Positions 1-42,442 of a stretch of 42,442 nt of DNA are shown piece after piece; the first letter of the stretch is position 1; each line of letters begins with the position of its first letter. A model generated the notes under the pieces. The model did not search any database, had not been told where the DNA came from, and saw only the letters and a list, made by a program, of their open reading frames with translations. The stretch is from a virus. The position numbers and the translations under genes are program-made. Location of the stretch: IMG/VR virus record IMGVR_UViG_3300043466_002170, positions 1-42,442 of that record. One strand, 5' to 3'.

Positions 1-513
1 ATCATTGGCAGTAGGGGTACAGGTAAGTACATCCAACCAGATGTGACATGCGACTCAATGGACGAGTTCCAGGCAGAACTAGACTCCGGCAAGTATGTAA
101 TGTCGCTGCCGTTATACATGCTGGCGCACGGAGTAGTCCGGCTCAGCACTGGGTCATTCAGCGATCCATGGGACAGCGGTCAATGCGGCTTCGCTGCACT
201 CACAAAAGAGCAGGCGCTAGATGTAACCGACAAAGAAAATCTAGAGTCAATGCTCGCAAACGCAGTAAAAACATTCGACAGCGCAATGAATGGCAATGTA
301 GTAGGGTATGTAATCACTCGCAAAGTCAAGTGCGCAACATGCGAAAACGAATCAGAAACGCACTTGGAATCGTGCTGGGGTTTCGTACTATCGGGCTGGG
401 GCGGGATGGACGGCTTCCTAATGGAAGAAGTATATCAGCAGTTCAACTACTGGGTTGATCACTTCAGCCAACAGGAACATGCAGCTACAAGCACAGCAAA
501 GTCAGATGACTAG
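1..513 (+). CDS. 3' part of a phage protein with a PWDSGQ-type motif (gene split by the window edge)
   Basis: The frame is open from base 1 to the stop at 511-513. An internal GTG at 43 could serve as a start, but no Shine-Dalgarno sequence precedes it. The protein carries a central block LSTGSFSDPWDSGQCGF followed by a Cys pair (CATC) and ESCWGF. From memory this matches a widespread small phage family whose usual form is D-E-F..LPLYLYDHSG..STxPFSCPWDSGQVGF...DSCWGF, function unknown. Family members have about 50 more N-terminal residues containing a Y-Q-D-x-D segment. Exactly such a segment (WAVYQDLDVDPDD) is encoded at the right edge of the window (42330-42442), so this entry is probably the C-terminal part of that gene in a circular molecule. 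The small gene at 526 follows 12 bases after the stop. Confidence 0.75.
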   Translation: MIGSRGTGKYIQPDVTCDSMDEFQAELDSGKYVMSLPLYMLAHGVVRLSTGSFSDPWDSGQCGFAALTKEQALDVTDKENLESMLANAVKTFDSAMNGNVVGYVITRKVKCATCENESETHLESCWGFVLSGWGGMDGFLMEEVYQQFNYWVDHFSQQEHAATSTAKSDD

Positions 514-525
514 GAGGAGAAATGA

Positions 526-657
526 ATGAAACGATTACCAGGAGCATCAGATGAAGATAAGCGAAAAGCGCTACGAGAAGAGGTAGAAAGATTCTTTACA
601 ATGCTATTGTTCCTAGTAGCAATAGTAATCTCGCTAGCGTCAAGTAGCAAGAAGTAA
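526..657 (+). CDS. Small single-pass membrane protein, 43 aa
   Basis: This 43-residue reading frame starts at an ATG preceded at 8 bases by AGGAGG (512-517), which also covers the stop codon of the gene before it. A nearer upstream ATG at 522 gives only a few codons. Residues 1-22 are charged (KRLPGASDEDKRKALREEVE) and residues 23-39 form one hydrophobic helix (FFTMLLFLVAIVISLAS) with a short Lys tail. It looks like a small inner-membrane phage protein of unknown function; a holin-like or superinfection role is possible but unsupported. It is the last gene of the rightward arm and its stop runs into the terminator at 656-698. A-ending codons (GTA, GCA, CTA, ATA) match the other rightward genes. 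Confidence 0.7.
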   Translation: MKRLPGASDEDKRKALREEVERFFTMLLFLVAIVISLASSSKK

Positions 658-698
658 AAAGAAGCCGGCGCCGCTCACGCGGCGTCGGCTCTTTTTTT
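656..698. terminator. Bidirectional intrinsic terminator between converging arms
   Basis: A 12-bp stem (AGCCGGCGCCGC at 663-674 with GCGGCGTCGGCT at 679-690, one G-T wobble) closes a TCAC loop. T7 follows on the plus strand (692-698). On the other side A5 at 656-660 gives a TTCTTTTT tail when read leftward. It can therefore stop both the rightward arm ending at 657 and the leftward arm ending with the tRNA at 744. Confidence 0.9.
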
Positions 699-743: not shown

Positions 744-819
744 TGGTAGGCCCGCCAGGATTCGAACCTGGGACCGCCCGGATATAAGCCGGGTGCTCTA
801 ACCGTTGAGCTACGGGCCC
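744..819 (-). tRNA. tRNA-Ile with UAU anticodon and encoded CCA
   Basis: The minus strand folds into a full cloverleaf. The acceptor stem is GGGCCCG/CGGGCCT with a G1-U72 wobble. The D-arm is GCTC/GAGC, the anticodon stem CCGGG partner of CCCGG, and the anticodon loop CTTATAT (U33, anticodon UAU, A37). The variable loop is 5 bases and the T-arm CCAGG-TTCGAAT-CCTGG. The discriminator is A and CCA is encoded at 744-746. UAU reads the rare AUA isoleucine codon directly. Most bacteria instead use tRNA-Ile(CAU) with lysidine at position 34. Bases 810-819 overlap the end of the upstream gene, whose TAG stop lies inside the tRNA. It is the last element of the leftward arm. Confidence 0.93.
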
Positions 820-4597: not shown

Positions 4598-4787
4598 GGT
4601 CAACTCCCTTCCATAGTTCGGCTGCGACTTGACCCGCAACCTCAATTGCCGTGTCATTTCTTCCGCCAGCCTCAGCGTCAATCTCCTGAGAGTCGTAAAA
4701 CGTCTGCAAAACTGCGGCGTAAATAATTCTCCATTCCATCAACGCCTGGTCAATAGATGGCTTAGTCTTAGGCTTCTTAGGTATCAT
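4581..4787 (-). CDS. Hypothetical protein, 68 aa
   Basis: The frame starts with the ATGA overlap to the epimerase gene at 4784 and ends inside the start of the small membrane gene. The product has a Lys/Pro-rich N-terminus (MIPKKPKTKPS) and a helical remainder (DQALMEWRIIYAAVLQTF, then TAIEVAGQVAAELWKG). No motif is recognised. The four-base coupling to a confident gene supports expression. Confidence 0.6.
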   Translation of the reverse strand: MIPKKPKTKPSIDQALMEWRIIYAAVLQTFYDSQEIDAEAGGRNDTAIEVAGQVAAELWKGVDHGDDA

Positions 4788-6215: not shown

Positions 6216-6604
6216 TTGCGAAGTGGCCCAAAGATTAGTGGGCTAGCTTCGACAACATTGAAGTCGACGAAGTACCTCTTGCCGTCATCGGATAGCTTCT
6301 TCTCTCCGCTGTATCGGCCAATGACGTGAATATGAGGTCGAGGATCCCGGCTGTCTGACTCCAACTTCTTGGAGTACGAAGCGTAAATCTTCTCTACGTG
6401 CTCAGACAGAGCCTCATCAAACACGGTAACTGATGCGTTCAGGTACCGTACAGTTGGCTCTGGGCCCTGCTTCTTGTTGGCCACCCACGAATCATACTCA
6501 GCTGTCTGAGCCTGCCCTCGGAAGGTCAGGGCGTTTACCCCAAGCTTCTCGATGCGCTTGCGAACCGGAGCCTCCTTACCAAACCAAAGATCAAGTCGTT
6601 CCAT
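6212..6604 (-). CDS. Putative OB-fold single-strand DNA-binding protein
   Basis: The 130-residue product has alternating beta-strand patterns. ALTFRGQAQTAEYDSW is an SSB-like first strand pair. RYLNASVTVF follows, then a helix, and HIHVIGRYSGEKKLSDDGKRYFVDFNVVEA resembles the SSB G-R-(x)n-D-G-x-R-Y/F hairpin. The start shares one base with the ERF stop, and it precedes a small gene by a four-base overlap. ERF-type annealing proteins usually lie beside an SSB, which supports the call. The identity is by fold impression only, so another beta-barrel protein is possible. Confidence 0.45.
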   Translation of the reverse strand: MERLDLWFGKEAPVRKRIEKLGVNALTFRGQAQTAEYDSWVANKKQGPEPTVRYLNASVTVFDEALSEHVEKIYASYSKKLESDSRDPRPHIHVIGRYSGEKKLSDDGKRYFVDFNVVEASPLIFGPLRK

Positions 6605-7125
6605 TAGAAGTCCACCCCTTCAAAGTCTGCAGACGCTGTCTTGGCGGGCGCCTTTGCCGCTGGCTTAGCCTCGAAGATTCTAGCAGCTGCGTCGGCAATT
6701 GTCTTGTCGCCGCTGTCATTCTCCGGGTCGTCGCCTGTAGGGATAAGGAAAGCGGTCAGGAGTGCGTACTTAAGCGCACCGGTGGCCGCCTTGTACGCAG
6801 CCTTGTCGCTGCTATCCGATCCTGTGCCAATGGACTGGAACGAAATCGTCTCGCCAGTATCTCCATCCGTAAGTGTCCACGTAAATCGAAGCGTAAGGAG
6901 GGTCTGCTTGCCGCTAGGCGTGAGCCCCTCCGCAACCACATCGACTGACGATGGGACCATCGACACGTTGTTCTTGGCCATCTCTTCGCGAACCGCGTCC
7001 GCCACATCGGTAGCCATTACGTACTTGTACCCCTGGGCCTGGTTAGTTCCAGACTTACGGATGTATCCAACTGCCCGCATGATGTCCACGAGCTTGGCAG
7101 CTAGGTTCTTCTTGGCCTCAGCCAT
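6604..7125 (-). CDS. erf: ERF-family single-strand annealing protein
   Basis: The protein starts AAKLVDIMRAVGYIRKSGTN and continues QGYKYVMATDVADAVREEMAKNNV, the signature start of phage ERF proteins. Then comes the beta core TLLTLRFTWTLTDGDTGE and GTGSDSSDKAAYKAATGALKYAL, again characteristic (the Gly-x2-D-x2-DKA motif). Family members anneal complementary single strands in phage recombination and form rings. The C-terminal 40 residues are Ala/Lys-rich and end DFEGVDF, an acidic tip like those by which SSBs and partners are bound. The Cas4-like nuclease gene before it overlaps by eight bases, giving an exonuclease-annealase pair. Confidence 0.9.
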   Translation of the reverse strand: MAEAKKNLAAKLVDIMRAVGYIRKSGTNQAQGYKYVMATDVADAVREEMAKNNVSMVPSSVDVVAEGLTPSGKQTLLTLRFTWTLTDGDTGETISFQSIGTGSDSSDKAAYKAATGALKYALLTAFLIPTGDDPENDSGDKTIADAAARIFEAKPAAKAPAKTASADFEGVDF

Positions 7126-13383: not shown

Positions 13384-14073
13384 TTATGCCACCCGGCGCA
13401 TGCGTCGGATTCGGCGTAGTTCGTCCTTCCATCGCTGCCTGGCGCTAAAGGCAAGCTGGTTCATGCCGATTGGGGTTACGTCAGTTGCGCCAGAGGATAC
13501 CTGCCACTGCTGGAATGAAGCTCGGTCGCCAACGAGTCGGTATAGAGCCTCCGACTGGACAAATACTTTTACGGCATTTTCCGCTGAGGCATCTAGGTCT
13601 ACTGTAACAGCAGATGCAGACACGCCTGATGCGCAGATGTTGTATGTTCCATATCCGTAGACTCGAAGAACTGAGGGGGAGGCTATTGTGTACCCAGGCG
13701 GGAAGTACAGCACCCCTCCATGGATCTCCCATCCGGAGTTAGCTCCCTCACCACTTGACGTGACGATGCTTTCTAGGTACCCAGTGCGGCTTCCGATTGA
13801 GCCTCCGAAGACGTCTATTCGGAATATTGTTAAGAACCTGTCGCCACCGGCAGTGTTCGTCGTAGTCGATATATCTACCGTCTTCAGTCCATTTGAGATC
13901 AAAGGAGAAGTGTAGTTGTACTCCTTGACAATCTCCTTGGGGTACACTCCCTCTATGTGCTGAACCCCAAGGTTGATCAGGGACTTGATCTCCGCCTCTG
14001 ACCATGTCAGGGCGTTCGGGTCGCGAAGATCCGACTGGATATCGTCTATGAGATTTTGGAATGTCGCCATCAA
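13384..14073 (-). CDS. Head-tail adaptor protein
   Basis: The N-terminus is helical (FQNLIDDIQSDLRDPN, WSEAEIKSLINLGVQHIEG). A beta-rich middle (FLTIFRIDVFGGS, GGVLYFPPGYTIASPSVLRV) and a helical, Arg-rich C-terminus follow (VFVQSEALYRLVGDRA and RQRWKDELRRIRRMRRV). This helix-beta-helix organisation of about 230 residues fits the adaptor proteins that bind under the portal, such as P22 gp4 or the HK97 gp6-like group. It abuts the Dit-like gene and overlaps the glycosyltransferase by four bases. The basic tail may contact DNA or the portal. Confidence 0.6.
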   Translation of the reverse strand: MMATFQNLIDDIQSDLRDPNALTWSEAEIKSLINLGVQHIEGVYPKEIVKEYNYTSPLISNGLKTVDISTTTNTAGGDRFLTIFRIDVFGGSIGSRTGYLESIVTSSGEGANSGWEIHGGVLYFPPGYTIASPSVLRVYGYGTYNICASGVSASAVTVDLDASAENAVKVFVQSEALYRLVGDRASFQQWQVSSGATDVTPIGMNQLAFSARQRWKDELRRIRRMRRVA

Positions 14074-15329
14074 TCTTCCTTCTTTCGTAGGCCATAGTTC
14101 GGGTGCTCAGCGGCCCAGCGGAACACTTCGGCCCACTCCTGGGCCCTTTCCTTGTAGTCGTACTCCTTCAAAATGCGCTCCTTGGCTGCTCCGGCAAGCT
14201 GGTCCCTTAGGTCCTTGCTCTCCACCAGCGACTTCATTGCGCTGTACCATTCTGATCTGGTCGATGCCAGCATTCCGTCCACGCCATGTCGGACCATGCT
14301 GTAGGGGGACTCCCCGTACTTGAACTTCTGCCCAACGAAAGCCGCCCCAACCATTGTATACTCAAGCCAGTGAAGCTCAGACTTGTTCCTGTCAAAATCG
14401 TCGCCGACCAATGGGGCTATCCCTATATCTGGGTAGCTTCTTGTGAGGGTTTCCGCAAAGCCCCGGATGTTCTCAACGTAGTGGTATGCTTCGTCAAAGA
14501 ACGGAGCGATCACGTGTTCCGTGCCAGGGTTGACCCCAATAAACACATTCCAAAGCTTCTTGACAGGTCTGCGCAACTCCTCTATGGCTTTGCCGCAGTA
14601 CCCCCCTACAAACCTCTTTTTTCCGTGGTCGTATTCTCCGCCGTAGTCTCGCATTCGCACCGTGCTTCCATAGTAGACCACACGCGGAAGATCGCCACTG
14701 ATGTCAGGACGGCTATGCTCAGTAGTATAAATCGACGGATCAATTGCATTTCTTATTATCCTAACGCTGTCATTGAATTTGCCATAGTAATCTGCTATCG
14801 GCTTTGTGCTTGTAGTGATGACGTCTGCACGCTTGGCCATTCTCTCGATAAGCGGCCACTCCTGGACCACGTCCGGGAAGTAGCCATTCCACGGCTTTAT
14901 GAAGAAGTGATTGTCGTCTGTTTCGTATATGATTCCCTTGTTGTGGGCTCGGCTCTCAAAAGCCGGCCAGGTCATCTCCGTGATACCGTCTCGAAGATCC
15001 ATCTTGTGTGGGTGGGACCTTATGACCTCACCGTCTTTACTTGCCAGTCCGCACGTAGTGCATTTGGCAGAGCAGTTATAGTATCGGCGGAACATAATCA
15101 CGTCCGCCCAGTCGATATCCTTTGTGTCGATCTTGAGAAGTCCCTTAGTCATCGCCTCGTCCTGGCTCATGCCCGCCGCCAGGGGATGGGAAACGAACTC
15201 TACCTTGTCAATATGCCGCATCTCGATTCCGAGCCTCTTAAGCTCCTCATCGAACATGTGGCCACGAAAATATGCGCAAGGGCCCTGCTCGGCAGTCCCC
15301 CAGACTAAGACCTTGACAGTATCAGCCAT
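14070..15329 (-). CDS. GT-B (GT4-like) glycosyltransferase in the head module
   Basis: The 419-residue protein shows two Rossmann-like halves. The N-terminal half holds VKVLVWGTAEQGPCAYFRG, DIDWADVIMFRR and YETDDNHFF. A middle ADVITTSTKPIADYYGKF marks the start of the second half. The C-terminal half holds FDRNKSELHWLEYTMVGAAFV and a G-V-D-G-M-L segment, the usual place for donor binding in GT4 enzymes. CSAKCTTCGLASK is an added Cys cluster, possibly zinc-binding. It sits between the major capsid gene and the adaptor gene, which is uncommon, and a capsid or tail protein may be its acceptor. The hairpins at 15360-15421 precede it. Confidence 0.82.
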   Translation of the reverse strand: MADTVKVLVWGTAEQGPCAYFRGHMFDEELKRLGIEMRHIDKVEFVSHPLAAGMSQDEAMTKGLLKIDTKDIDWADVIMFRRYYNCSAKCTTCGLASKDGEVIRSHPHKMDLRDGITEMTWPAFESRAHNKGIIYETDDNHFFIKPWNGYFPDVVQEWPLIERMAKRADVITTSTKPIADYYGKFNDSVRIIRNAIDPSIYTTEHSRPDISGDLPRVVYYGSTVRMRDYGGEYDHGKKRFVGGYCGKAIEELRRPVKKLWNVFIGVNPGTEHVIAPFFDEAYHYVENIRGFAETLTRSYPDIGIAPLVGDDFDRNKSELHWLEYTMVGAAFVGQKFKYGESPYSMVRHGVDGMLASTRSEWYSAMKSLVESKDLRDQLAGAAKERILKEYDYKERAQEWAEVFRWAAEHPNYGLRKKED

Positions 15330-17010: not shown

Positions 17011-20000
17011 TTACTTGTTTGGCTCAACATAATCAACAGGGCCATCGAAGTAATCCCATACTTCTGATCCGACCCCGCCGAATCTCTTTAGAACTCCGTA
17101 TACGTTTTGCGTTGCACCCTGTTCAGCCAGCGCCCTAATGGCGTAGAATGGATCTGCCTGGGCAGGCTCTCGTCCTGGTGCAGGAGGCCTTCCGGCACGC
17201 TCAAGCTGCATTAGGTATGCATTAAGCCACTTTGGACCGCTCACAGAAATATCACCTGGAACGGCCGGGAAAAGCTGCTTGAACATGAATACCGCATCCG
17301 ACTTGAACAGCGCGTCCATCCCTTCTGGGTCAGTCTCCGCCCATGTGGCCAAATGGTCCTGGGCCTCCCTGACCATTTCGTATCCAGCAAATGGCCTCGT
17401 CTTGTTTGTGAACGGCATTTTTACAAAAGCAGCCCTGGCCATCTCAGGAACAACCTTGCCCATCATGTAAGAAAGTGGGTATATCCCAAGAACGGGATGA
17501 TTTAGGCTTCTTTCAAAAGCTGTTCTGTTAGGGTTGTAGAAGTGGATTCTGTTTGCAGCATCTGCAGTATCCTTTAGTGTAACCCGTAGAGCTGAAAGTA
17601 GGACCTCCTCGAAGCCATGCTCCCCGATTAGCTTGTTCATTCCAAACTGAACCGCACGAACATCTTCTGCGTCAAGCTTTTGACCCTTCTGAAGTTTTGT
17701 TAAGGCATTTTCTAGTCCCGGGAAATCCCCGCCATACTTTCGGAAGTTTGCCAGAGATGCCGCAAGGCTTTCCCTTGTAAATCCCTTTGTGTTAAATCCA
17801 GCAAGCTCTGGGTACTCCTTGATGGCTTTTGATAGCAGATCGAAGTTCTTGACTGACTGCGTGGCAATTGCCTGTCCCTCATTGGCAAACGCTGCCATCT
17901 TGTCTATGATCTTTATGGCCTCGTCTCCACTCCTAACGCCAATAAGCTTAATGTTAAGTTCCGCCAGTTTGGAAACGTCGTTGCCAAGGGCAGCAGACTT
18001 TTCTATAGCGTCCTTAAGGATAATCGACTCGGCTTTTGCCGTGGCAATCTTAGATGCCTCGTCTGAAGCCCCGGACACTTTGCCCCTGAGAGAAGACACG
18101 TCTCCTGCCAGAGATTTGGCTGCATCTGGAGATCCCTTGGCAGAGAACCCAAAGCCAGGTGGACGGTTTCCATCAAGAACGCGTACTGGGTTCACATAAC
18201 CATTTTTAGCGTCACGTATAAGGTTGATTAAAATTTCTTTTGGGTTATTTGTTCCGTATGTTTTTGATCCCTGAACAAACTGCCTTGGGAATTGGGTTCT
18301 CATAACAGCCCCAAGCTCGTCAAGCCCAATAGACAGGGCGGCCTCTTCTCGCCTGGCCATCTTCATAGGGTAAGGGTTCATAATATTCCTTACCATGTCC
18401 CCAAACCCGCCTTTTATGCTTTGAGCCAAGCCCTGCCTTACTATGGCGCCATTCTTTGTGTCGTCGACAACTTTGCCAATCTGGGCCCCACCAAGGGCAA
18501 CCAGGGAGTTTATAACGTCAAGGTCAGCGGTTATTGCAGCGGTGGAGTCTCCAAGAACCGTTGCGGCCAGAGGTTGTGTGATCTCCTCTCCAAGCTTGGA
18601 TATGCCAGCCCTCTGTGCTACGCGGCTTTCCAGAAAATTTGAACCGTACGGAAGAGCTCTTATCCAGCCATGACGAGTTTTATACTCTCCGCTTGTCATT
18701 GTCCGGTTAATACCTCGAAGCCGGTTGAAGAATGGGGATTCAATGTACTCCTGAACAAAGAAGAACGGGTTGTATCGGAACTTTAGTTGAGGGTACACGT
18801 AATCTGTTATTATAGCAAGTGAGGGAACCTTTGTCTTTGCCCAACCAGTAAAGTTCTGGGCAGTCCCTACGGTCCCCTTTGATCCGGCATAAAGGGTCAT
18901 GAGTGCCTTGCGAGGGTCTCCTATTTCGTCGATCATTTTGGTATATACTTTTGGTCCAAATGCAGACTGGAACGTCTTTGTTACAAAGTTCTCGTCCATG
19001 ATCAAAGCGCGAGGAACCATCCTTCTACGGAGGGCCTCCTCGTTGATCTGCGCCAAGACCCTTCTTCCGTCCGCCTCGGTTCCGCCGTACCTTTGTGCTA
19101 GCCTGATTGCGGTGGCAATCTGCTCATTTTGAACCGCTCTAGAGCTAACAGGGGTCAGCCACTTGTCGGCCATCTGTCGGAGAGCTGACCTATTAAATGA
19201 GTTAGCGGAAAGCTCTAGGGTGTCGTCAAAGAGGTTGGCTGTGCTGTCAATGAAAGGAAGTACGGAATCCGGGATATACTCAACCGCGTCGTCCGTTACC
19301 TTTGTGGCCATAGAAACCCTTACCCCAGACTCTGGGGCAAACCCAAGGCTGTATCGACCGGACTCTAGAGACTTCAGAACGGCCGCTCCGGCACCTGGGC
19401 TAAGCTTGTTTAGTATTCCTTGAAACTCAGCAACTTCGTCAGCAGATGCCTTAACAACGTAGTTCCCGCTCTTGATCATTTCGTCTATGTTGGACTTCAT
19501 TTCAGCCCAAACCGCTTTTTCTGCACGGTTTACTATCATGCCAAAGTCAGGGAAGTATGAAGCAATAGCTACGGCTATGTCGTCAGGGCTCTTTGCCGCA
19601 CCGACAATCTGAGCAAATTCTTCAGGAAGAGACGCAAGAATTCCAGAAGGAAGGGCCTCGCCCTTCTCCACGGCGGCAGCAATGTCCCTAAGAGATTCAA
19701 GCCGCTCTTTAGTTAGACTGTCGGACTTTACAAGGTTAATTCTGGTGTACTTAGTGTTTGCAGGGTCGGACAGCATCTTTCGTAGCTCTTCGAACCTTGC
19801 AGTAGGAATCTCCTTGCCAAGAATTTCAGCTAGCTTTTTCTCATCCCCCTTGGCAACGGCCGAAAGAGCTGTTCTTATTATTGCTGCGTTAGTTCCCTGG
19901 TTACCGTAGGCGGCGATCTCCATGAGCTGAACATATCGAGCCTGGTCTTCTGGGCCCATTTTGGAGACAGTCTCGTCCCAGAATCGACTAAGAAGTGCAG

Positions 20001-21522
20001 TTGCCTCTGGACTTGTCGGTGTAATATTTCCAGAAAACGCGTCAGCAACCTGCTTCTTTCCATGGCCGGACACGGCGGCGGCACCCTTTTCGATGAAGAG
20101 TGTTCTTCGGAATTCAGGCGAAAGTCTCTCAAGTTTGTATGCCCCTTCCGCAATGTGGGAGGATGCCTCGAGTGCCGAGTCTGACATTCTAACGCCACCA
20201 GCCTTCTGGATGGTTTGCCAGTTGCCTCCGGCCTCGGCTCCAACCTGGCGTACTTCTGCCTTTACCTGTATGTCGATCCAATCTCTTCGGGCAGCCCTTA
20301 CTGCATCGTCAGAGGCCTCCCAGATTCGGTTTAGGAGCTCCATCGATCCTGCGTCGCCGGAAGAAAGGCCCTCGTTATTTAGCTCTTTTGCTGCCCACTC
20401 CTTACCGTTTGCAACCCTGCCGGCCTTTTCTAGTGCCCGTCCTTGATTCCTAATGGAAACAACTCGGTTTGCCCTTGCGGTAGCTACGTTTGAAGCAGAG
20501 CGATTGAAAAGCTTTCCGATTGTAAATATCATGGTCTGGTTGAGACCACGGCCAATAGCTTGCGCAAGGTTGTCTGCAAGTTCAGGCCTGCCATTATCCG
20601 CAAGGAACTTTACTGTGAGCCTAGGGGCTTGCCGTAGCTCCTTGGTGGCCCCAATAAATACTGGCGTAAGCATTGCAGAAGTGAGCGCCCCAAAACCCCT
20701 GCCCATTTTACCAACAGTCGCGTCGTATAGGGCTCCCGGGATTCGCCATCGCTCGAGGAATGCGGCGTCCTCAGGGTTAATTGCACCCGCAAGAACTGCG
20801 CTCCTTATTTGGCTTGGCCTTTTGCCTGCCACTGTTACTCCCAGCTCAGACTCAAGGGCCGATACTGATTTCCCGGCCTTAGATGCAGCTATAAGTTCAT
20901 CAGCCCTGGATAGGGCTGTGGCCTCAACTTTTGCCAATCCTGCCGCTCCTCTGGCCATAGTGAATGGCTTAGCTATTGGAACGTAATTTAGCGGGTCAGT
21001 GACAAGAGCAAATCCAAGGTTAGCTGCTGCGTTATCGCTAAAGGCTCGATTATTCTTTACTAGGTAGTCAACAACTTCCCCGAATTGCTTACCGCTTGAC
21101 ATCATGCTCTTTACGTCGTCTGGCCTATCCCCAAAAACACCAGATGCCCTGACTGCTGCCGCCCCGGTCTGTACAACTTGGCCAGGAATCATCGCAAGGT
21201 CAAGGGCTCCCTTTGCAATGTCTTTTACCTGAAGAGTTCCCTTAAGCCCCACTTCTCCCAGTGCACCTATTCCTCCGGCTATTGCCTTCCCGACATCCCC
21301 TATTACGGGAACTCCTCCAAGAAAGTCAGCGGCGCCGGCGGCCCCTTTAACAACACCGGTAAACAGATTTCCAACGCCTGCAGCTACCGTCTCCACTGGA
21401 TTGGTGGGGTCAAGATTTATATCAATCGGCTGCTTTATCTCTGGCTTAGGGGCACGCGGCATTGACGGCGCAGGCTGAAGCATTCCCCCAGAAGTGTCGG
21501 ATCCCCCTCCGATATAGCCCAT
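17011..21522 (-). CDS. Giant virion-associated protein, 1503 aa
   Basis: This is the largest gene in the window. The protein starts with a Pro/Gly-rich segment (MGYIGGGSDTSGGMLQPAPS). An amphipathic Gly/Ala stretch (about residues 45-110, VAAGVGNLFTGVVKGAAGA, then GDVGKAIAGGIGALGEVGL) resembles membrane-inserting segments. The rest is mostly helical, with a long region of coiled-coil-like segments and a C-terminal part (YPLSYMMGKVVPEMARAAF). It lies between the scaffold and the 913-aa protein and was checked for RNA polymerase motifs (none found) and for a peptidoglycan hydrolase motif (none obvious). It is probably an internal or ejected virion protein. A tape-measure role is unlikely given the position. 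Confidence 0.72.
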   Translation of the reverse strand: MGYIGGGSDTSGGMLQPAPSMPRAPKPEIKQPIDINLDPTNPVETVAAGVGNLFTGVVKGAAGAADFLGGVPVIGDVGKAIAGGIGALGEVGLKGTLQVKDIAKGALDLAMIPGQVVQTGAAAVRASGVFGDRPDDVKSMMSSGKQFGEVVDYLVKNNRAFSDNAAANLGFALVTDPLNYVPIAKPFTMARGAAGLAKVEATALSRADELIAASKAGKSVSALESELGVTVAGKRPSQIRSAVLAGAINPEDAAFLERWRIPGALYDATVGKMGRGFGALTSAMLTPVFIGATKELRQAPRLTVKFLADNGRPELADNLAQAIGRGLNQTMIFTIGKLFNRSASNVATARANRVVSIRNQGRALEKAGRVANGKEWAAKELNNEGLSSGDAGSMELLNRIWEASDDAVRAARRDWIDIQVKAEVRQVGAEAGGNWQTIQKAGGVRMSDSALEASSHIAEGAYKLERLSPEFRRTLFIEKGAAAVSGHGKKQVADAFSGNITPTSPEATALLSRFWDETVSKMGPEDQARYVQLMEIAAYGNQGTNAAIIRTALSAVAKGDEKKLAEILGKEIPTARFEELRKMLSDPANTKYTRINLVKSDSLTKERLESLRDIAAAVEKGEALPSGILASLPEEFAQIVGAAKSPDDIAVAIASYFPDFGMIVNRAEKAVWAEMKSNIDEMIKSGNYVVKASADEVAEFQGILNKLSPGAGAAVLKSLESGRYSLGFAPESGVRVSMATKVTDDAVEYIPDSVLPFIDSTANLFDDTLELSANSFNRSALRQMADKWLTPVSSRAVQNEQIATAIRLAQRYGGTEADGRRVLAQINEEALRRRMVPRALIMDENFVTKTFQSAFGPKVYTKMIDEIGDPRKALMTLYAGSKGTVGTAQNFTGWAKTKVPSLAIITDYVYPQLKFRYNPFFFVQEYIESPFFNRLRGINRTMTSGEYKTRHGWIRALPYGSNFLESRVAQRAGISKLGEEITQPLAATVLGDSTAAITADLDVINSLVALGGAQIGKVVDDTKNGAIVRQGLAQSIKGGFGDMVRNIMNPYPMKMARREEAALSIGLDELGAVMRTQFPRQFVQGSKTYGTNNPKEILINLIRDAKNGYVNPVRVLDGNRPPGFGFSAKGSPDAAKSLAGDVSSLRGKVSGASDEASKIATAKAESIILKDAIEKSAALGNDVSKLAELNIKLIGVRSGDEAIKIIDKMAAFANEGQAIATQSVKNFDLLSKAIKEYPELAGFNTKGFTRESLAASLANFRKYGGDFPGLENALTKLQKGQKLDAEDVRAVQFGMNKLIGEHGFEEVLLSALRVTLKDTADAANRIHFYNPNRTAFERSLNHPVLGIYPLSYMMGKVVPEMARAAFVKMPFTNKTRPFAGYEMVREAQDHLATWAETDPEGMDALFKSDAVFMFKQLFPAVPGDISVSGPKWLNAYLMQLERAGRPPAPGREPAQADPFYAIRALAEQGATQNVYGVLKRFGGVGSEVWDYFDGPVDYVEPNK

Positions 21523-24263
21523 TAACGCCCCCCATTTGTTGATGTCGATGTCGAGATGTTTAAAGGAGCACGCTCCCCAGCACGGAAGTCAACCATTGAC
21601 TGGGAAATTTGCTGTGGGGTAAAGCTTATGGACTGTGCCGGTGGCCGGCTGTCCGTTAGGCCGGTGCTGAGAGACGTCCCCTTAAACGAAGAGTCTACAT
21701 TTGAAACCCCGGCATCAAGCTGTGTACCACCTGCATACCTGAAAGCATAAGAACTGTCAAGGCCTGGCACAGAAGCCTGCGGTAGGCCATATTTCGTGTA
21801 TGGAGATGATGCCATTTCCCCAGGAACCCGAAGCCTTGCCGCTGCCCCAGCTGCCTGGGTTCGGAATGGATTAGCTGCCGCCTGTGCTCCTGTTGGCCTG
21901 GCGAGATCAGAAAGACCCTGAATCCCAAGGCCTGCGATGTAGAACGGGTTTTGCTCCGGGTTTGGACCGATAGCCTCACGAAGGTTCTTGTTTGCCTGAA
22001 GCTCATCGTACATTTGGGAGGCTGCGACATATCCCCTGTCCATCCTATCGGATGCCTGTTCCGGAGTCGGAGTAAGGCTGGTTCCACCGTCGGAAGTTGC
22101 AAACATTTCTGGTGCTGCGCTCATTCCGGCGTATCCCTCTCCGTCCACCCCTCTTGATTTCCTAATAATTGTAGTGCCGACTTCGCGCTTTATTCGTGAC
22201 CCGGCTTCTGAGTTGAACAAGTCTAGTATGTCGCTAGACAATAGGCCTGTCTCACGGAATGCAAGGTCCTCATTTCGGACCACAAGATTTCCATCTCCGT
22301 CAAGCCCAAATGCAAGATCAAGAGTCCCAGACTCGGTCAAGTTTTGGTAAATTGTCTTCGCAACCTCAGAAATTGCAGCATCAGACCCAGGCCCCCTAGC
22401 GATATTGTCAAAAATCGAATCCGAAACGTACTTTCCCCATGATGCATTCTGTTTGATTAGAGCACCAGTAGATGCCCGACCTATAAGTTCCGGAGATAGC
22501 CCCGCAACGGAAATTCCACCGTTTTCCGCATCGTATGAAGATGCTCCTATGCCATCCAGGTACTTTAGGTATGCAGCCTGATCCATAACATAGTTGTCAA
22601 GTGTAAGGACCTTTTGCACCCTTCGATTGTTTTCGTCAATTTCGAAGAAAGTGTGTCCAAGAAGTGATCCTTCTTGTGTTAGTATAGGAGTCTTTTCCTG
22701 CTTGGCAAGAACTTGCCAACCGCCTCCCTCTGTCAAATCTCCGCTGGAAAGAGTAACTATTCCGTTGCTAACAGGCTTGTTGACCACTTCAATAACTACG
22801 CCGTTTGCACCGTATGGAACGGCCTTTAGATATCCTTCTCCACTCTGAACAAGATCTGCTGATCTATAGTCATTTACTGCACCAGTAATGAGCTCTTTAG
22901 GGTCTACTGAGCCGTTGGTAAAAATCAGAGCAGTTCCGGTGTAGGTTGCAACAAGCCTGTCAACTTGAGACTGGCTTAGGTCTGCAATGAACTCTACCGG
23001 ATCACCATTATTATCCAGGAAGTCTTTTCCTCCGTCTGGAGTCTGTCCGTTTAGAATTGACATAAGACCCCTGCCCATTATGTCAGTTCCAACCTCTTCG
23101 GCAATGTTATTTGCATGTCTCTGGTAAAGCTCGACATTGGTCAATGGATTTCCGAGGCTTCTCTCGTTGTCAAGGGTAAGATTTAGAGATGAGCGGTCCG
23201 CGGCCTCAAGCCCGGTCAGAAGTCCCATTGGACCAGAAAGCTCAGCATCGAATTGGGTTAGCATCGCAAGCGCCTGAGCCTTTGTCGATGCGTCAGACAT
23301 GCTTGACTTTGCAAGGATCTTAATTGACTCCCTAGTCTCTTGGGTCCATGCGATAATTGAGTCGGAACTAAGCTCGACGTCTCCAAGCATTATTCCCGCT
23401 TTTTGACCAGATAGGATCACGTCAATCTTGGAGTCTAGTCCAAGGCTAAGCCATCGTGAAACAACGCCCATTGGGTCGCCATTCCCTTGAATTGCCAGCA
23501 CATCATCCTGGGTCATGAGACCAGTATTGGCGGCCTCTTTGGCAGCCTCGATGAGTGTGGATGCCAACTTAGCGGTCCGCCTAGATACAACATCGACTGC
23601 GTCTTGCAGCTGCTTTCTCTTAAAATCATCTGCGGCTCGGTCTGATGCGTCCGCGAGATATCCCTGGATGTCCCGGTATACCTTGCTGTCCTTAGATAGG
23701 CCCATCTCTTCAGCACGCTTAAGCTGACGGTCGTAGAACCTGGCAAAAGAACCAGCACTAGCGTTCTTGGCTTTCATGTCGCTACTTATGTCATTGAATG
23801 TGACAAGAAATTCCTCTTTGGTATACTCTATCTTGTCGGCATCGCTGCTGGTTAAAGACTTTGCATCCCTAAGGAAAGTGAGGTACTTGTCCATAGTTAC
23901 TTGCTCGCCAAAAGCATATGTTCCGTTTTCGTAAGCATCAGCGTAGGCTGACATTTCCTGCCTAAGTGAGGATGCCCTGAAGTCGTTCAGCTCAGCTGCA
24001 AGCTTGTCCCTCTCGGTTGTGCCCTCTGGGTATGCCGACATCATTTCGATGTAGAATTCCTCTACGGCAGCTCGGTCGACAACCTCTCCCCCGTAAGTTG
24101 AGTCGTACGTCTTTGTGCTCATGTTTGCGTTGAACGCAGTAAGCAGTGCCTGCTTTCGTGCAGTCTGCTGCTCCTTTAGTATGTTGTAGATTAGGGTGGT
24201 AAGGTTCTGTGTACCGGATGTGGCCCGTCGGAATCGGGCTCGTCGCTTAGTTCTGATTGCCAT
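21522..24263 (-). CDS. Large virion-associated protein, 913 aa
   Basis: The protein opens with a strongly basic run (TKRRARFRRATSG) and is largely alpha-helical with repeated charged helices (VEEFYIEMMSAYPEGTTERD, then EQVTMDKYLTFLRDA and RQLKRAEEMGLSKDSK). The C-terminal part (from about residue 740) is low-complexity and Gly/Ser/Pro/Ala-rich. It overlaps the portal stop and the 1503-aa gene start by single bases. Position directly after the portal and the shape fit an internal core or ejection protein, as in podoviruses with complex internal heads. No enzyme motif is seen. Confidence 0.7.
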   Translation of the reverse strand: MAIRTKRRARFRRATSGTQNLTTLIYNILKEQQTARKQALLTAFNANMSTKTYDSTYGGEVVDRAAVEEFYIEMMSAYPEGTTERDKLAAELNDFRASSLRQEMSAYADAYENGTYAFGEQVTMDKYLTFLRDAKSLTSSDADKIEYTKEEFLVTFNDISSDMKAKNASAGSFARFYDRQLKRAEEMGLSKDSKVYRDIQGYLADASDRAADDFKRKQLQDAVDVVSRRTAKLASTLIEAAKEAANTGLMTQDDVLAIQGNGDPMGVVSRWLSLGLDSKIDVILSGQKAGIMLGDVELSSDSIIAWTQETRESIKILAKSSMSDASTKAQALAMLTQFDAELSGPMGLLTGLEAADRSSLNLTLDNERSLGNPLTNVELYQRHANNIAEEVGTDIMGRGLMSILNGQTPDGGKDFLDNNGDPVEFIADLSQSQVDRLVATYTGTALIFTNGSVDPKELITGAVNDYRSADLVQSGEGYLKAVPYGANGVVIEVVNKPVSNGIVTLSSGDLTEGGGWQVLAKQEKTPILTQEGSLLGHTFFEIDENNRRVQKVLTLDNYVMDQAAYLKYLDGIGASSYDAENGGISVAGLSPELIGRASTGALIKQNASWGKYVSDSIFDNIARGPGSDAAISEVAKTIYQNLTESGTLDLAFGLDGDGNLVVRNEDLAFRETGLLSSDILDLFNSEAGSRIKREVGTTIIRKSRGVDGEGYAGMSAAPEMFATSDGGTSLTPTPEQASDRMDRGYVAASQMYDELQANKNLREAIGPNPEQNPFYIAGLGIQGLSDLARPTGAQAAANPFRTQAAGAAARLRVPGEMASSPYTKYGLPQASVPGLDSSYAFRYAGGTQLDAGVSNVDSSFKGTSLSTGLTDSRPPAQSISFTPQQISQSMVDFRAGERAPLNISTSTSTNGGR

Positions 24264-26557
24264 TATTCCTCACTCCCGTTTTCTACTGGAACTTCGAGTC
24301 CCATTGGAAGCTCGGCCCCGACTTCGGCGTTAGCCGGCAGGGACTCCGCTGGTGGATTGGCTAGGTTCTCAAAGCCACCTAGCGCCGGTCCGCCGATCGC
24401 AGGCGGATTAAGCGTTCTGGAAGCGTTGAGTGATTGCTGTTGAGCCTGGAACTGCTCTTGAGCTGCCTGCTCTTGAGGCTGAAGCTGCTGGGACTGAATT
24501 CCCTGCTGCTGTAGCTGTTGGAACAGTTGCAACAGATTACCCATCGTCAAGACGGCCGCAGGATTGATGGTCGCATCAGTCTGCTCGTCTCGGATGATGT
24601 CAAGCTCGCCCTCTGGGTCCTCTACGCCAACGCGATCCATTGCGCGTTCAGCGCTCCAGATGCGGTTCTGTACGAGGTTGATAGCAGTTTGAGCCAGCTC
24701 GAGGGTATCTCGTGGAGTGAGCTCAGGCGGGATGATATCGATACGGTATTGGTCCTCAAAGATTTGGGCAATAGCCTTATCTTTTGAAGCCCAAACACGT
24801 CCGGAGAGTGTCCATACGTCCTTCATCCACTGGTAGAAGAGCTTGCGCTTAGGTGCAATTCGTGACTCATAGTTTGCAATGAGAGACGCGATTGCCTTAG
24901 ACGAACCAAGCACGCTCGTCGGCGCAAGGCCAAGAAGCAAGTCGTTGAGTCCGGTGACCACTGCGATTTCTCGGTCGATACGCTTGTTGTAGTCCTCAAT
25001 CTGGAACTGAGGAATGAACGGCTGCAATGCTCGGAGCTCGTTGCCCGGTCCTGGGGCCGCAACCTTGTTAGGCTTGGGGAGGGCGTTAGGTGGTACCTCA
25101 TCAGGCGCCTCGGCGCCGATGAGCTGCCACATCTGGCCACCGACGACCGACTGTATCATCTGTGCCTGGTTGGTGATGCGCTCGTCCTTCTCGCGGAGAA
25201 GCTGCTCAACGTCGTAGAGCTCTGGCTTGCCGTATGGGCTGCCAGGAACCTTGCCGTTCTGCACCATAACGTACGGAATGCTGCCAGCGTACTCTGGGTG
25301 TCGCGTATGACTTACCAGAGTGTTGCCGACGTAGATTGCATTCCAGACCATCGGAGGCTTTCCGGCAGACGTAGGAACCTTGTACCAGTAGTCGTACACC
25401 TCTACCTGGAGCTGCTCATATACAGTCTCTCGGCGGAGTGGGTTTCGCTCAAACTGATTTTGGTAAACAGTTCCAAGTGGATCGTCATGAGTGGACCCTG
25501 TGGAATATCCGTACCACTTCTCTCCCTGCTTGACTGGGATGATGTCAATCCCGAAGTCTTCCTTGACCGCCTGTGGGGATAGGCCGTAGCAGTACAGGGC
25601 CCAGTCCAGCCGTGTGTAGTCTGAGTTGCCGAACCCCATGTATAGGTTCTCTGGCTGCTCGATGATATTTACAGACGGCATGCGCAGGTTGGCGTCCCAG
25701 TAAATCTTGGCTGCCGTGTATCCGTAGAGGCTCTTTGTGAGAGCAGCTGTCTCAAGCTTGAGGTCCATGTTCTGCTCGTGCCACCACGAGAAGAAGAGGC
25801 GCTCTCGGTTGGCAGCGTCCTCCCTGGCCTCCTCTGTGGGAGCTTCCGGGATGTAGTGGATGACCGGAGTCACCGCCTGGAGGGAGGAGGGGATGTTTAC
25901 GTAGGCTGCGTGAACGTTGACAGATACGTGGGCGCGGCCGGCAAGACGTGCGCTAGGGTCCTCGGCCCAGTGGTCGGCGCCACCTAGCGTGATAGTATCT
26001 GGATGGTACATCCTGTCGAAGCGACGGAAGATGCTGCGGAGTCGGTTCTGCTCCGGCTCCAGCTGCTGCTTTCGTGTAAGGATTTCTCCATATAGCTTGA
26101 ACTCTTCGTGCTCCTCTGGGTTTACATCCTGCATCTCCAGAGACTTCTTCAACATTGTTACAGAATTTGACTGGGAATCTGTAAGCTTGTCCATTTGAAG
26201 AGGGGTGTAGTTCTTCTTTATTGGCGTCCCTCGTCCGCCGGACGATGAGTTGACCTTGGTAGGTGAAGTCGATATAGGGGATCCGCCAGCAATTCCGGAG
26301 TTGAGAACAGAGGATGGAGCTGGCGTCCTCGACTCTCCACGAACTTTAGCAGCTGACGCAACATTCTTTACGGCAATGCCAGCTTGCGGCATTCTTCCAG
26401 GCTCTACCTGTCCTCGAGAAAGTCTCTTTGCCTTGTCGATAGACTTTCCAATTTCTGCAACCTGGGAGGCAGGTGCTACCGCCGGGTCAGTTGTGTACTG
26501 CCCCGGTACTCCCTTGCCATCTACGAAAGAACGCGGTACGCCTCTTACCTTAGCCAT
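24263..26557 (-). CDS. Portal protein
   Basis: The 764-residue size matches the large portals of N4-like and P22-like phages. The N-terminal 110 residues are low-complexity. The core begins about residue 115 (KLTDSQSNSVTMLKKSLEM). It then has RRFDRMYHPDTITLGG, a wing region with FFSWWHEQNMDLKLETAAL, and the crown/stem part with IDREIAVVTGLNDLLLGLAP and SSKAIASLIANYESRIAPKR. RAMDRVGVEDPEGELDIIRDE is the usual late portal sequence. The C-terminus is Gln-rich (LLQLFQQLQQQGIQSQQLQ), like barrel or tail segments. It directly follows the terminase gene. It forms the dodecameric DNA channel. Confidence 0.88.
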   Translation of the reverse strand: MAKVRGVPRSFVDGKGVPGQYTTDPAVAPASQVAEIGKSIDKAKRLSRGQVEPGRMPQAGIAVKNVASAAKVRGESRTPAPSSVLNSGIAGGSPISTSPTKVNSSSGGRGTPIKKNYTPLQMDKLTDSQSNSVTMLKKSLEMQDVNPEEHEEFKLYGEILTRKQQLEPEQNRLRSIFRRFDRMYHPDTITLGGADHWAEDPSARLAGRAHVSVNVHAAYVNIPSSLQAVTPVIHYIPEAPTEEAREDAANRERLFFSWWHEQNMDLKLETAALTKSLYGYTAAKIYWDANLRMPSVNIIEQPENLYMGFGNSDYTRLDWALYCYGLSPQAVKEDFGIDIIPVKQGEKWYGYSTGSTHDDPLGTVYQNQFERNPLRRETVYEQLQVEVYDYWYKVPTSAGKPPMVWNAIYVGNTLVSHTRHPEYAGSIPYVMVQNGKVPGSPYGKPELYDVEQLLREKDERITNQAQMIQSVVGGQMWQLIGAEAPDEVPPNALPKPNKVAAPGPGNELRALQPFIPQFQIEDYNKRIDREIAVVTGLNDLLLGLAPTSVLGSSKAIASLIANYESRIAPKRKLFYQWMKDVWTLSGRVWASKDKAIAQIFEDQYRIDIIPPELTPRDTLELAQTAINLVQNRIWSAERAMDRVGVEDPEGELDIIRDEQTDATINPAAVLTMGNLLQLFQQLQQQGIQSQQLQPQEQAAQEQFQAQQQSLNASRTLNPPAIGGPALGGFENLANPPAESLPANAEVGAELPMGLEVPVENGSEE

Positions 26558-28056
26558 TATTCAGCAGCTCCAAAATAGGAAAAGGCCACGTTCGCCGCGG
26601 CCTTCTCGGGATTCCTTATTGCATAGCGGACGGCGATTGCAAGTGCCATTACGGCGTCCTGCTCAATCTTCTTGTCATCTAGTTTGTATGCCAAGAGCTG
26701 CCTCCGTAAATCTTCCCAGATGCCCCCTCTTGGGAACTTGATCTGGCCCTTGTCGATGATTGTCTTTAGGTCGTTTAGTAGCTCGAGCTTCTTCGATTTG
26801 GTGCCACCGAAGTCGAAGTCTCTAAGTGGTTTTATGATCGAGAACTCTTCGCGGAAAAGCTTTCCGCCCATCCCGGTAGAGTCGACTACCGTTGTGCACT
26901 GTGCGCTTGAACTGTAAAGCAAATGCCCTTCCCGGACCATGTTGACGACCGCTGTGATCGTTTGCTTTCCAGAACGCTTTCGCGCCCTGACTCCTTGCAT
27001 TGCGACACGCTTTGTGATGTCGATTGTGAGCGCCCATGTTGCGTCGGACGAAATACCAGGGTCACAGCCCTGGACGTAACGGTGAGCCGACTTTGGCGCA
27101 TCCTCGACCTCCAATGTGCTATCGAAGCAGGCTTCGACTCCTTGAGACGAGAAGAACGCCTTACGGGACTCAATGAAGTATCCATCTACGTTCTGGGGGA
27201 TTAGGTACTCAGCTTGCTGTCTAACGACCGCGTCGAAATCTTCCTGACGTAGTCCGTATCCGATATTGTCCCTCGTGGACAATCGGAACGATATGAACTG
27301 GTCGTCCCTGGTTGGGTTCTCCGGGTTTCCCATCTCCCAGAGATCCGAGTAGTCGTTGTAGCCTTCGGTTGGTGTCCCGATGAAGTGGAGCGGCCCACCG
27401 GTAGACAGGCGGCGCAAGTTTAGAACCTCTTGGTAGATTGTTATCAAGTGAGGCTCGAAAGCTGCCTCGTCGAATGATATCCCCTGCATGTCCTTGCCCA
27501 GGAGCGCCTTCGCCTTGTCCTGGGTCGTTCGGAAGTGGATGCTGGCCCCGCCCAGAATTGGGTTGAACTTTATCCACAGGTACTCCCCTCGGTACTTCTT
27601 CTCAAAGTCGGCAACCTTGCCGAGCTCTTTTGTTAGGGGGCAACCGCGACCCTTCTGGGCCGGATGCGCACCCTGCAGTATCATTGCAATTTCGCGGTGA
27701 ACAAGTTCTGCGGTCTCTTGCTGGATGCCAACGTGGTACCACTCGTACGGGTCATTGATCCACCTGATCGCATCCGTTTGATCTCCTCCGGCGGGAGGTC
27801 TAACCCCGAGTTTGTAGAGGGCATGATGAAGACAGACAACCGCCATCGCGAGCGTTTTGCCGGCACGATTACCAGCGGAAACGACGGTTGTGAGGTACCT
27901 TGGCCGGAATCCGTCATCTGCACGGTCTGCACAGGCCTTCCACCATCTGACTTGTCCAGGGTTCCCCTTGATACCGAGCCAGCGAGAAGCAAAGAACTCG
28001 ACGTCACTGCGACCGCGAGCCAGATCGAGAGCGGCTTGTCCTTGGACAGAATTCAA
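26557..28056 (-). CDS. Terminase large subunit
   Basis: The 499-residue protein has both terminase parts. The ATPase holds Walker A SAGNRAGKT (60-68), Walker B ISFDEA (193-198, Asp196 and Glu197), and HFIGTPTEGYNDYSDLW, the coupling motif. The nuclease holds the metal acidics: QGCDPGISSDA (Asp332), TTVVDSTGMGG (Asp392), and EQDAVMALAIAV near residue 470. It packages DNA into the prohead through the portal, encoded next with one base of overlap. A basic DUF6321-like gene precedes it by a four-base overlap. The headful (pac) or cos mode is not visible in the protein. Confidence 0.95.
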   Translation of the reverse strand: MNSVQGQAALDLARGRSDVEFFASRWLGIKGNPGQVRWWKACADRADDGFRPRYLTTVVSAGNRAGKTLAMAVVCLHHALYKLGVRPPAGGDQTDAIRWINDPYEWYHVGIQQETAELVHREIAMILQGAHPAQKGRGCPLTKELGKVADFEKKYRGEYLWIKFNPILGGASIHFRTTQDKAKALLGKDMQGISFDEAAFEPHLITIYQEVLNLRRLSTGGPLHFIGTPTEGYNDYSDLWEMGNPENPTRDDQFISFRLSTRDNIGYGLRQEDFDAVVRQQAEYLIPQNVDGYFIESRKAFFSSQGVEACFDSTLEVEDAPKSAHRYVQGCDPGISSDATWALTIDITKRVAMQGVRARKRSGKQTITAVVNMVREGHLLYSSSAQCTTVVDSTGMGGKLFREEFSIIKPLRDFDFGGTKSKKLELLNDLKTIIDKGQIKFPRGGIWEDLRRQLLAYKLDDKKIEQDAVMALAIAVRYAIRNPEKAAANVAFSYFGAAE

Positions 28057-28370
28057 GATCCCTTCTTCTTCTTATTCTTAAGGCGCTCGCTCATGGCACG
28101 CGCCTTGGCTTTAGCGTCCGATTTGCTGCTGGCGCCCCATGCCTGTAGGCTGAGTAGCAGTCTTGTAGGCTTGCCTTTCTCGTCCCTCTCCGGACCGGGC
28201 ATGCCGCCCATTCGGGCCAGGAACGATGCCCTTCTGGGGTTGTCCCCCTTCTTGACTGGCGCCTTCAAAGTGCCCCCGGTCTCCGCCTTGTAGGAAGCTC
28301 TGCCCTTGGCGTTTAGGCCACCCTTAGGGTTCTTTCCTTCTTTTCGCTGCCATGCTGCCGTTCTAGCCAT
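28053..28370 (-). CDS. Small basic protein, DUF6321-like
   Basis: The 105-residue protein is rich in Lys, Arg and Gly. It matches the small phage family DUF6321 by WQRKEGKNPKGGLNAKGRAS, GGTLKAPVKKG and RRASFLARMGGMPGPERD, followed by KPTRLLLSLQAWGA. Family function is unknown; the strong charge suggests DNA binding. Its ATGA overlap with the terminase gene and its place next to packaging genes make a role in DNA packaging or virion DNA compaction plausible. The C-terminus ends in a Lys-rich run (KNKKKKGS). Confidence 0.75.
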   Translation of the reverse strand: MARTAAWQRKEGKNPKGGLNAKGRASYKAETGGTLKAPVKKGDNPRRASFLARMGGMPGPERDEKGKPTRLLLSLQAWGASSKSDAKAKARAMSERLKNKKKKGS

Positions 28371-28908
28371 TCCTCACCTCGTTGTGGAAGTACAGTACCT
28401 TCGGCACGAACTTCAATGATTTAGACCTTGAGGCTATCTTTTCGATGAACGTTCCGTCAGCCTCGTAGTGACGGTCCGTGTACCCTGCCTCCCTGGCAAG
28501 TGTAGTGCTAACTATGTAGTTGCCAGAGGTAGAACTTCCGGACCTAAAGTTTGGGGTTGAGGACTTGGACCACCCGCAGTAGACTGCGTCGTGGCCAGAC
28601 TCTGCCTCGGACATCATCACTTCGATGTACGTCTTGTCGTATGAGTCGTCGTGGTTGAACCAACCCGAGTAATCAGATGCCGCCAGGTCAAGCCCCTTGG
28701 CTCGCTTGTCGTGACCCCAGTCATTGAGGTTCGGCTCCGGGTGGAACCTGATTGCCGGATACGCTCTTTCAGCTTCAGAGAGGCTAATATCACTAGCCAG
28801 GACAATGATTTCATTAGGGACCCTGGTCTGGTCCAGAAGTGAGTTGATCGTACGTAGCATTGACGACTCGTCCGCATGAGCAGTTACAATTGCTGTGAAC
28901 GTAGCCAC
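28363..28908 (-). CDS. GT2-like (GT-A) glycosyltransferase
   Basis: The N-terminal half fits family 2 glycosyltransferases. FTAIVTAHADESSMLRTINS and LLDQTRVPNEIIVLASD form the nucleotide-binding strand and helix, and SGWFNHDDSYDKTYIE supplies the metal-binding DD motif. The second half has GHDAVYCGWSKSS and an E-x-D-G-T-F-I segment near residue 155, where these enzymes place the catalytic Asp. At 181 residues it is a short, minimal form. It overlaps the cytidylyltransferase gene by 95 bases in another frame. The two probably act together; the acceptor is unknown. Confidence 0.8.
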   Translation of the reverse strand: MATFTAIVTAHADESSMLRTINSLLDQTRVPNEIIVLASDISLSEAERAYPAIRFHPEPNLNDWGHDKRAKGLDLAASDYSGWFNHDDSYDKTYIEVMMSEAESGHDAVYCGWSKSSTPNFRSGSSTSGNYIVSTTLAREAGYTDRHYEADGTFIEKIASRSKSLKFVPKVLYFHNEVRNG

Positions 28909-30724: not shown

Positions 30725-30895
30725 TTATTCCTTCCAACGTAGTGGACCAGTGATGAGCCACCCAAGTGTTAGTAGAACAAATAGTGTTGCCATCGTAGTC
30801 TGCGTTCCCCCCTCGGGAAGAACGACGACAGCGAACAAGAGCCCAAGTACTGTCCAGGCTCCGCCGATCAGGTCAAGGATAATTCTTTTAATCAC
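30725..30895 (-). CDS. Two-span small membrane protein, possible second holin
   Basis: The GTG at 30895 has AGGA seven bases upstream and is preferred to longer starts that would run inside the repeat-protein gene. The result is a 56-residue protein: [20 protein letters not shown], then [10 protein letters not shown], then [18 protein letters not shown] and PLRWKE. There are two hydrophobic helices joined by a Pro/Gly turn, with positive ends. The last eight bases of the secreted-repeat gene overlap its start. Size and neighbours fit a holin or antiholin. Confidence 0.62.
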
Positions 30896-32000
30896 GTTGC
30901 TTTCCTTTTTGATTGCTGCGAGGCTTGTCCATACCGCCCGTACCACCACCGCCCCCACCGCCACTACTTGGCGTTCCGCCCGTCGAGCGAACTGCTGATG
31001 CTGCTGCCGAAGTTGCGATTTGACTTGCGACAATTGCTGTTGCAACTGGCTGCGCGTCTTCTTTTTCTGTTTCATCGAGGTCACTACCGATCTCCGTAAT
31101 CGCAATGATGTTGTCAAAAACTTCTGTGACTGATTCTAGCGCGGCATCCACTGCCTCCCCGACGGCTTCCGCTACCTCGTCTACGGTAGGAAGATCGGTG
31201 TCAGGATTATCAGTAGGCTCAGGGCTAGGCTCAGGGCTAGGCTCGTCAGTAGGATCAGGAGTTGGCTCAGGCTCCTCTGACGGTTCCTCCGACGGTTCGG
31301 GCTCGGTAGTCGGCTCTGGCTCTACCGTCGGCTCTGGGGTAGGCTCGGGAGTCGGCTCTGGAGTAGGCTCAGGAGTCGGCTCTGGCGTCGGCTGCGGAGT
31401 TGGCTCAGGCGTCGGTTCAGGCGTTGGCGCTGGCGTCGGCTCGGGCGTAGGCTCAGGCGTTGGGCTCGGCTCTGGAGTTGGATCAATTGGCGGCTCCAAA
31501 CTTGGCTCTGGTGTAGGTGTTGGCGCAGGACCTACGACCCACGTGGTGTTGTTGATTTGTAGGAATCCTGCTCCACAACAAGAGTCGATGCTTATAATTC
31601 GGAATCCAAAGATACCGCCAGCGGCGATATAGACAGTCTGCACGCCACTCTGCTGGAGAGGGTTGTATCCGCCCTGATTCCAAATAGCAAGGTCAATCCA
31701 ACTCTCGTCGAGCAGCATCTGTGCCTTGTCGTAAAACACGCCGTCGGTTGTCCAGTATGACCAGTCAAACGATACGGTTTCTCCAAGGGATGAGTCCGTT
31801 GTTAGTCCAGTCACCGTGTTCTGCCACGGGTACCCTGGACCTGCGTTGTTGGATCCTTGAATTAGGATGGTCCCATCGGTTAGTGTGATGGTCCCGTTGC
31901 TATCGATCTGCTGGTCCCACTCGTCCGTGTCCTCAAGTGCGAGTGCGCCCACCGGAGAAAGAAGCAGTGTCAAGGCTAAAATGGCTGCAAGCCTTACCAC
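30888..32000 (-). CDS. Secreted protein with Pro/Thr/Glu repeats, 370 aa
   Basis: A signal peptide is clear ([21 protein letters not shown], cut probably after residue 21). Residues 22-160 form a beta-rich domain ([37 protein letters not shown] and [20 protein letters not shown]). Residues about 160-270 are E-P-T-P repeats. The C-terminus holds a helix ([19 protein letters not shown]) and a Gly-rich, Lys-rich end ([17 protein letters not shown]). The start is GTG 32000 with AGGAG upstream. Secretion of a phage protein suggests a surface or lysis-linked role. No catalytic site is seen. Confidence 0.8.
31202..31482. repeat. Imperfect tandem repeats coding for (E-P-T-P)n
   Basis: About 12-base units such as GGCTCTGGAGTAGGCTCAGG recur many times in slightly different forms, encoding Glu-Pro-Thr-Pro and Glu-Pro-Ser/Glu units on the minus strand. 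Unit sequence drift suggests old amplification rather than recent slippage. Confidence 0.85.
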
Positions 32001-41956: not shown

Positions 41957-41968
41957 AAAGGAGGACTG

Positions 41969-42346
41969 ATGTGTAGCGAATACAACGGATGGACAAACTA
42001 CGAAACATGGAATATGAATCTATGGCTTACCAATGATTCAAGTTTCTATGAAATCGCAGACGACGCCATTCAAGTTATAGTCAACAATGACTACAAAGGT
42101 ACAGAAGACAAACCAATAAAAATCGACAAGGACGATGTTGTATGCCAAACAGCAGAGTGGCTCAAAGACCATGCATACGATGTATATCTAGATGGCTTTG
42201 ATTCAACAGACTACAATAGATACGGGCCAATCGGAGACTTTGTACACGCATCGTGGAACGAAATCAACTGGTATTCAATAGCAGAACATGTTGTAGATGA
42301 CTGGCTAGAAAATAACAAGGAGGAATACTATGCCGTTCTCAGATAA
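41969..42346 (+). CDS. Phage protein of the GWTNYETWN type (DUF7249-like)
   Basis: The N-terminus has EYNGWTNYETWNMNLWLTND, a widespread phage and plasmid signature. A helical part with DDVVCQTAEWLKDHAYDVYL, FVHASWNEINWYSIAEHVVD and DWLENNKEEYYAVLR completes it. The family is small and its function unknown; some members lie close to antirestriction genes. The start has AAAGGAGG four bases ahead. It overlaps the split gene at 42330 by 17 bases. It is acidic with high Asp/Glu content. Confidence 0.75.
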   Translation: MCSEYNGWTNYETWNMNLWLTNDSSFYEIADDAIQVIVNNDYKGTEDKPIKIDKDDVVCQTAEWLKDHAYDVYLDGFDSTDYNRYGPIGDFVHASWNEINWYSIAEHVVDDWLENNKEEYYAVLR

Positions 42347-42442
42347 GGCTCTAGAGTCCGGACGCAACGATACCCACGGTATCGAATGGGCAGTGTACCA
42401 AGATCTAGATGTAGATCCAGACGATCACAAAGAGTTCACTAT
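42330..42442 (+). CDS. 5' part of the gene continued at base 1 (split by the window edge)
   Basis: ATG 42330 has AAGGAGG six bases upstream. The 37 codons read MPFSDKALESGRNDTHGIEW, then AVYQDLDVDPDDHKEFT, and stop at the edge without a stop codon. Joined to base 1 with the shared AT counted once, the frame continues TII-GSRGTG... into the protein ending at 513. That yields the known order of the family (Y-Q-D-x-D...; D-E-F; PLYMLxHG; PWDSGQ; ESCWGF). Without removing the AT the frame is shifted and ends at a TGA at 44-46. So the molecule is probably circular or repeated at the ends. Confidence 0.72.
   Translation, partial: MPFSDKALESGRNDTHGIEWAVYQDLDVDPDDHKEFT

Follow-up and report, generated by a model that had tools for sequence, protein, structure and literature searches.

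The window, by which we mean the whole stretch of DNA analysed (42,442 bp), covers all of the IMG/VR virus record IMGVR_UViG_3300043466_002170, and both of its edges fall within coding sequence. The last 113 bases open a gene, with a GGAGG followed by an ATG at 42330; positions 42330-42440 translate to MPFSDKALESGRNDTHGIEWAVYQDLDVDPDDHKEFT and leave an 'AT' over. From the first base, frame 1 encodes a further 170 residues (IIGSRGTGKY...SMDEF...PLYMLAHG...DPWDSGQ...ESCWGF...KSDD, then a stop). The longest exact repeat between the window ends is 2 bp, and counting the terminal AT once yields a single 207-aa ORF across the junction. The features around the junction are listed in Table 1.

Table 1. 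Features at and around the junction of the window ends.
Feature	Position	Strand	Basis
DUF7249 gene (PF23907), just upstream, overlapping the start of the split gene	41969..42346	+	Pfam E 1.3e-9; 39.3 bits (cut-off 27)
5' part of the split gene, 37 codons including the start, plus AT of codon 38	42330..42442	+	translation; GGAGG ribosome-binding site before ATG
AT shared with window 1-2, forming the entire terminal overlap	42441..42442	+	alignments of relatives
3' part of the split gene, codons 38-207 plus stop; phrog_6186-like	1..513	+	translation; phrog_6186 E 6.7e-10
Bidirectional intrinsic terminator-like hairpin between the rightward and leftward arms	656..698	.	stem 663-690 with T tract
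tRNA-Ile (anticodon TAT)	744..819	-	ARAGORN; Rfam RF00005 72.4 bits

The landmarks on both sides of the split gene are conserved. The DUF7249 gene keeps its place beside it, with nucleotide alignment up to window position 41959 in four relatives (G001, G002, G003, and G005), and the tRNA-Ile(TAT) downstream is positionally conserved in all six close relatives and also present in G014. The more distant relatives G010 and G011 have a tRNA-Arg(TCT) in its place. The predicted terminator stem has 12 pairs plus the T tract. It folds well on either strand, at -33.0 kcal/mol (z -5.9) on one and -28.9 kcal/mol (z -4.1) on the other, and on this folding model the hairpin is real. An earlier reading made from the sequence alone (the sequence-only reading) had held that the rightward arm and this bidirectional terminator are continuous across the window edges; indeed, the arm starts at about 40064, crosses the junction, and reaches the terminator at about 656.

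The same reading had proposed that one gene is split by the window edges and that its halves join in frame if the AT at both ends is the same two bases. An IMG/VR scan with the 170-aa 3' part gave six relatives with 65-93% identity; the 37-aa 5' part is 81-92% identical in five relatives (residues 1-37) and 47% identical in the sixth (residues 7-36). In these six independent contigs both halves lie in one uninterrupted ORF of 207-208 aa, and the joint falls exactly where it had been predicted, between FT and IIG (FD and IIA in L007), with zero residues added or lost in all six. The two halves are one gene, and the joined protein, expected at about 205 aa, proved to be a single ORF as foreseen but of 207 aa. 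In these six relatives the database matches thus show one protein and not two separate proteins.

The nucleotide alignments placed the joint to the base. When five whole relative contigs were compared with the window by blastn, window positions 1 and 42442 adjoined, overlapping by exactly 2 bases, and when the AT was left uncollapsed in a doubled window, a 2-base gap appeared exactly at the joint in all five relatives checked, as expected if the terminal AT is one and the same pair of bases. With the closed circle as reference, the alignments of all six relatives ran straight through the junction, so that the ends of the window are adjacent to each other in these related genomes. The map closes at 42,440 bp, in agreement with the length near 42,440 that had been anticipated. 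A degenerate junction pattern retrieved only four relatives from IMG/VR, all already known, and no same-strain contig with the exact junction sequence was found in that collection. The adjacency is read from relatives about 70-95% identical around the junction, and we infer that the DNA of this phage has the same adjacency and that its opening position is biologically meaningless.

We found near-full-length contigs via the terminase and the split gene and then tested each for end repeats of its own. Four of them close at other places. The opening lies within the gene for the major head protein in G007 (end overlap 21 bp), within the homologue of 6604-7125 in G010 (123 bp), within TerL in G011 (123 bp), and within the gene for the scaffold protein in G012 (140 bp, one mismatch). 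Collapsing the overlap restored full-length ORFs of 323, 173, and 500 aa in G007, G010, and G011, giving circles of 40,750, 42,389, and 40,906 bp, respectively. G009 has a 27-bp end repeat, with no known gene spanning its ends. The contig ends of the mapped relatives are scattered, and none lies at the window junction. Because the opening points differ and the contig ends of relatives are scattered, the cut in the window does not represent a site that is fixed in the group. The uncultured phages around IMGVR_UViG_3300032291_003450 and IMGVR_UViG_3300007734_000680 (long contigs of 35.7 and 40.0 kb) have a TerL 96-99% identical to that of the window and the same gene order in their aligned parts, whereas divergence or replacement affects variable regions, for example those at about 17.4-24 kb and 32-35 kb. 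Two very large ORFs of 1503 and 913 aa at 17011-24263 (-) are strongly diverged between otherwise close relatives, and neither matched a PHROG or Pfam entry.

We consider it almost certain, taking the explanation as a whole, that the record is a complete phage genome with a circular map, opened by the assembler at an arbitrary base within a gene; an uncultured tailed phage would thus be represented by one essentially complete unit of its genome, 42,440 bp long, in which the split gene is intact. The reads would have come from a map-circular template, whether an intracellular circle, a concatemer, or linear virion molecules permuted across a population, and the assembler would have closed the cycle and written it out linearly from an arbitrary base inside the gene of the DPWDSGQ-family protein, leaving ends that abut with two shared bases. 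The closure of near-complete relatives at four other places counts for arbitrary opening, and the conserved neighbours on both sides, the DUF7249 gene and the tRNA-Ile(TAT), count for a closed map. By our estimate, two ends no more than a few bases apart would be expected about once in 10^4 under a random-fragment model. Against closure counts the overlap of 2 bp, which is far below an assembler k-mer and leaves the exact abutting without explanation.

The alternatives fare poorly against the same observations. Sequencing of a phage with fixed ends could run exactly from one end to the other, and the overlap is only 2 bp, as might be expected if the window ends were the real physical ends of a linear virion molecule, either cohesive or cut by the terminase, inside the split gene. 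The gene would then be broken in the virion, however, and no mapped relative contig ends there. Packaging ends inside the split gene were rejected because relatives read through the site and open at other places, and we regard such physical ends as very improbable. Still harder to credit is a linear fragment lacking a stretch between its ends, with the in-frame joint a coincidence. A 2-base terminal identity would arise by chance in about 1 in 16 cases, but in six relatives neither a residue nor a base is lacking at the joint; moreover, the hallmark phage genes are all present in the window (DnaB helicase, exonuclease, major head protein, portal, TerL, and Dit), and its length is consistent with that of the closed relatives, 40.7-42.4 kb. 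This fragment reading we hardly entertain.

Opening of a closed map by the assembler, the explanation we prefer, is an ordinary effect of a kind already known, and nothing points to a function of the split itself. The authors of CheckV describe assemblers as breaking circular templates at random places, and their repeat test needs a direct terminal repeat no shorter than 20 bp (PMC8116208). The window and the contigs with direct terminal repeats in that paper (PMC8116208) are alike in having a circular map opened arbitrarily with the same bases at both ends, over 21-140 bp in the relatives of the window; they differ in that the window overlap, at 2 bp, is under the 20-bp limit. An automatic repeat-based circularity call would therefore miss the window, although a repeat of that length is a criterion for the automatic call and not a requirement for circularity. 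If our explanation is true, repeat-based tests would class such a record as linear or incomplete, and counts of complete genomes may miss similar records; relatives can provide support for closure even where an end repeat is below the length that an automatic call needs. The annotation would regain one intact gene, the genome would be fixed as complete at about 42,440 bp, and the rightward arm would be continuous to the terminator.

A circular map of about 42,440 bp is well supported by these sequence comparisons as a claim about the map, not about the physical virion molecule. The sequence-only reading had also implied a circularly permuted or terminally redundant genome, which is plausible. 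Headful packaging, with virion DNA both circularly permuted and terminally redundant, would be a refinement of the assembler-opened circular map rather than a competitor, and we judge the case for it evenly balanced. It is favoured by the four closed relatives, each opened at a different place, and by a sub-threshold match of TerL to Terminase_6N, a T4-type family. However, assemblers also open cos or fixed-repeat genomes randomly once circles or concatemers are sequenced. A circular map can also arise when a phage with such ends forms circles, or concatemers in replication, and hhalign of TerL against the terminases of Sf6, T4, T7, N4, lambda, and HK97 gave no usable score. For N4 we used gp68, which we take to be its TerL; the record does not name it so.

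TerL had no match in the PDB, where profile matches were at chance level only, and none in 50,697 phage records. In IMG/VR, by contrast, TerL (26557-28056, -) has hundreds of relatives, with 274 stretches confirmed in one scan. By sequence similarity, the TerL group appears to be a common group of uncultured phages without an isolate in the 50,697-record collection. We think it rather probable that the record is a complete genome from a group with no isolate relative in the phage collection and with a terminase that is unassignable to a known packaging type. Directly upstream of TerL lies a DUF6321 protein (28053-28370, -; PF19846, E 5e-25), 79-85% identical in distant relatives, whose position suggests a putative packaging role. 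Upstream of TerL, the ends of many relative contigs form a loose group between 28.2 and 28.8 kb (28218-28797), which may reflect a variable region or a packaging site in what is a biased sample, the contigs having been chosen by TerL. We dropped the attempt to read the packaging mode from the contig ends of relatives because selection by TerL makes this group uninterpretable.

The split protein itself belongs, by its profile match, to a widespread phage family with no assigned function, phrog_6186. The match covers residues 21-129 of the 170-aa part and positions 79-185 of the 220 in the profile (E 6.7e-10), and the DPWDSGQ motif is invariant in 45 homologues. Isolates carry relatives as well, such as Moorella phage MTATph1 and Bacillus phage vB_BcoS-136, but the split protein is only about 30-36% identical to the versions in isolates. 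An AlphaFold model of one relative is confident (pLDDT 87.7) and had no match in the PDB at E <= 0.001; its significant viral matches at that threshold were uncharacterised phage proteins, save one named only 'Zinc ribbon domain protein' and a few unnamed. A host search in genome contigs gave a single remote match (24%) on a Neomarinimicrobiota MAG contig, no basis for a host call.

Elsewhere in the window, the gene at 30888-32000 (-) encodes a protein with a long repeat (tandem 12/24-bp units, 31212-31469) after a signal-like N-terminus; it gave only one weak match against PHROG. Glycosyltransferase genes and a dTDP-4-dehydrorhamnose 3,5-epimerase-like gene (14070-15329, 28363-28908, and 4784-5329, -) lie among the structural and replication genes.
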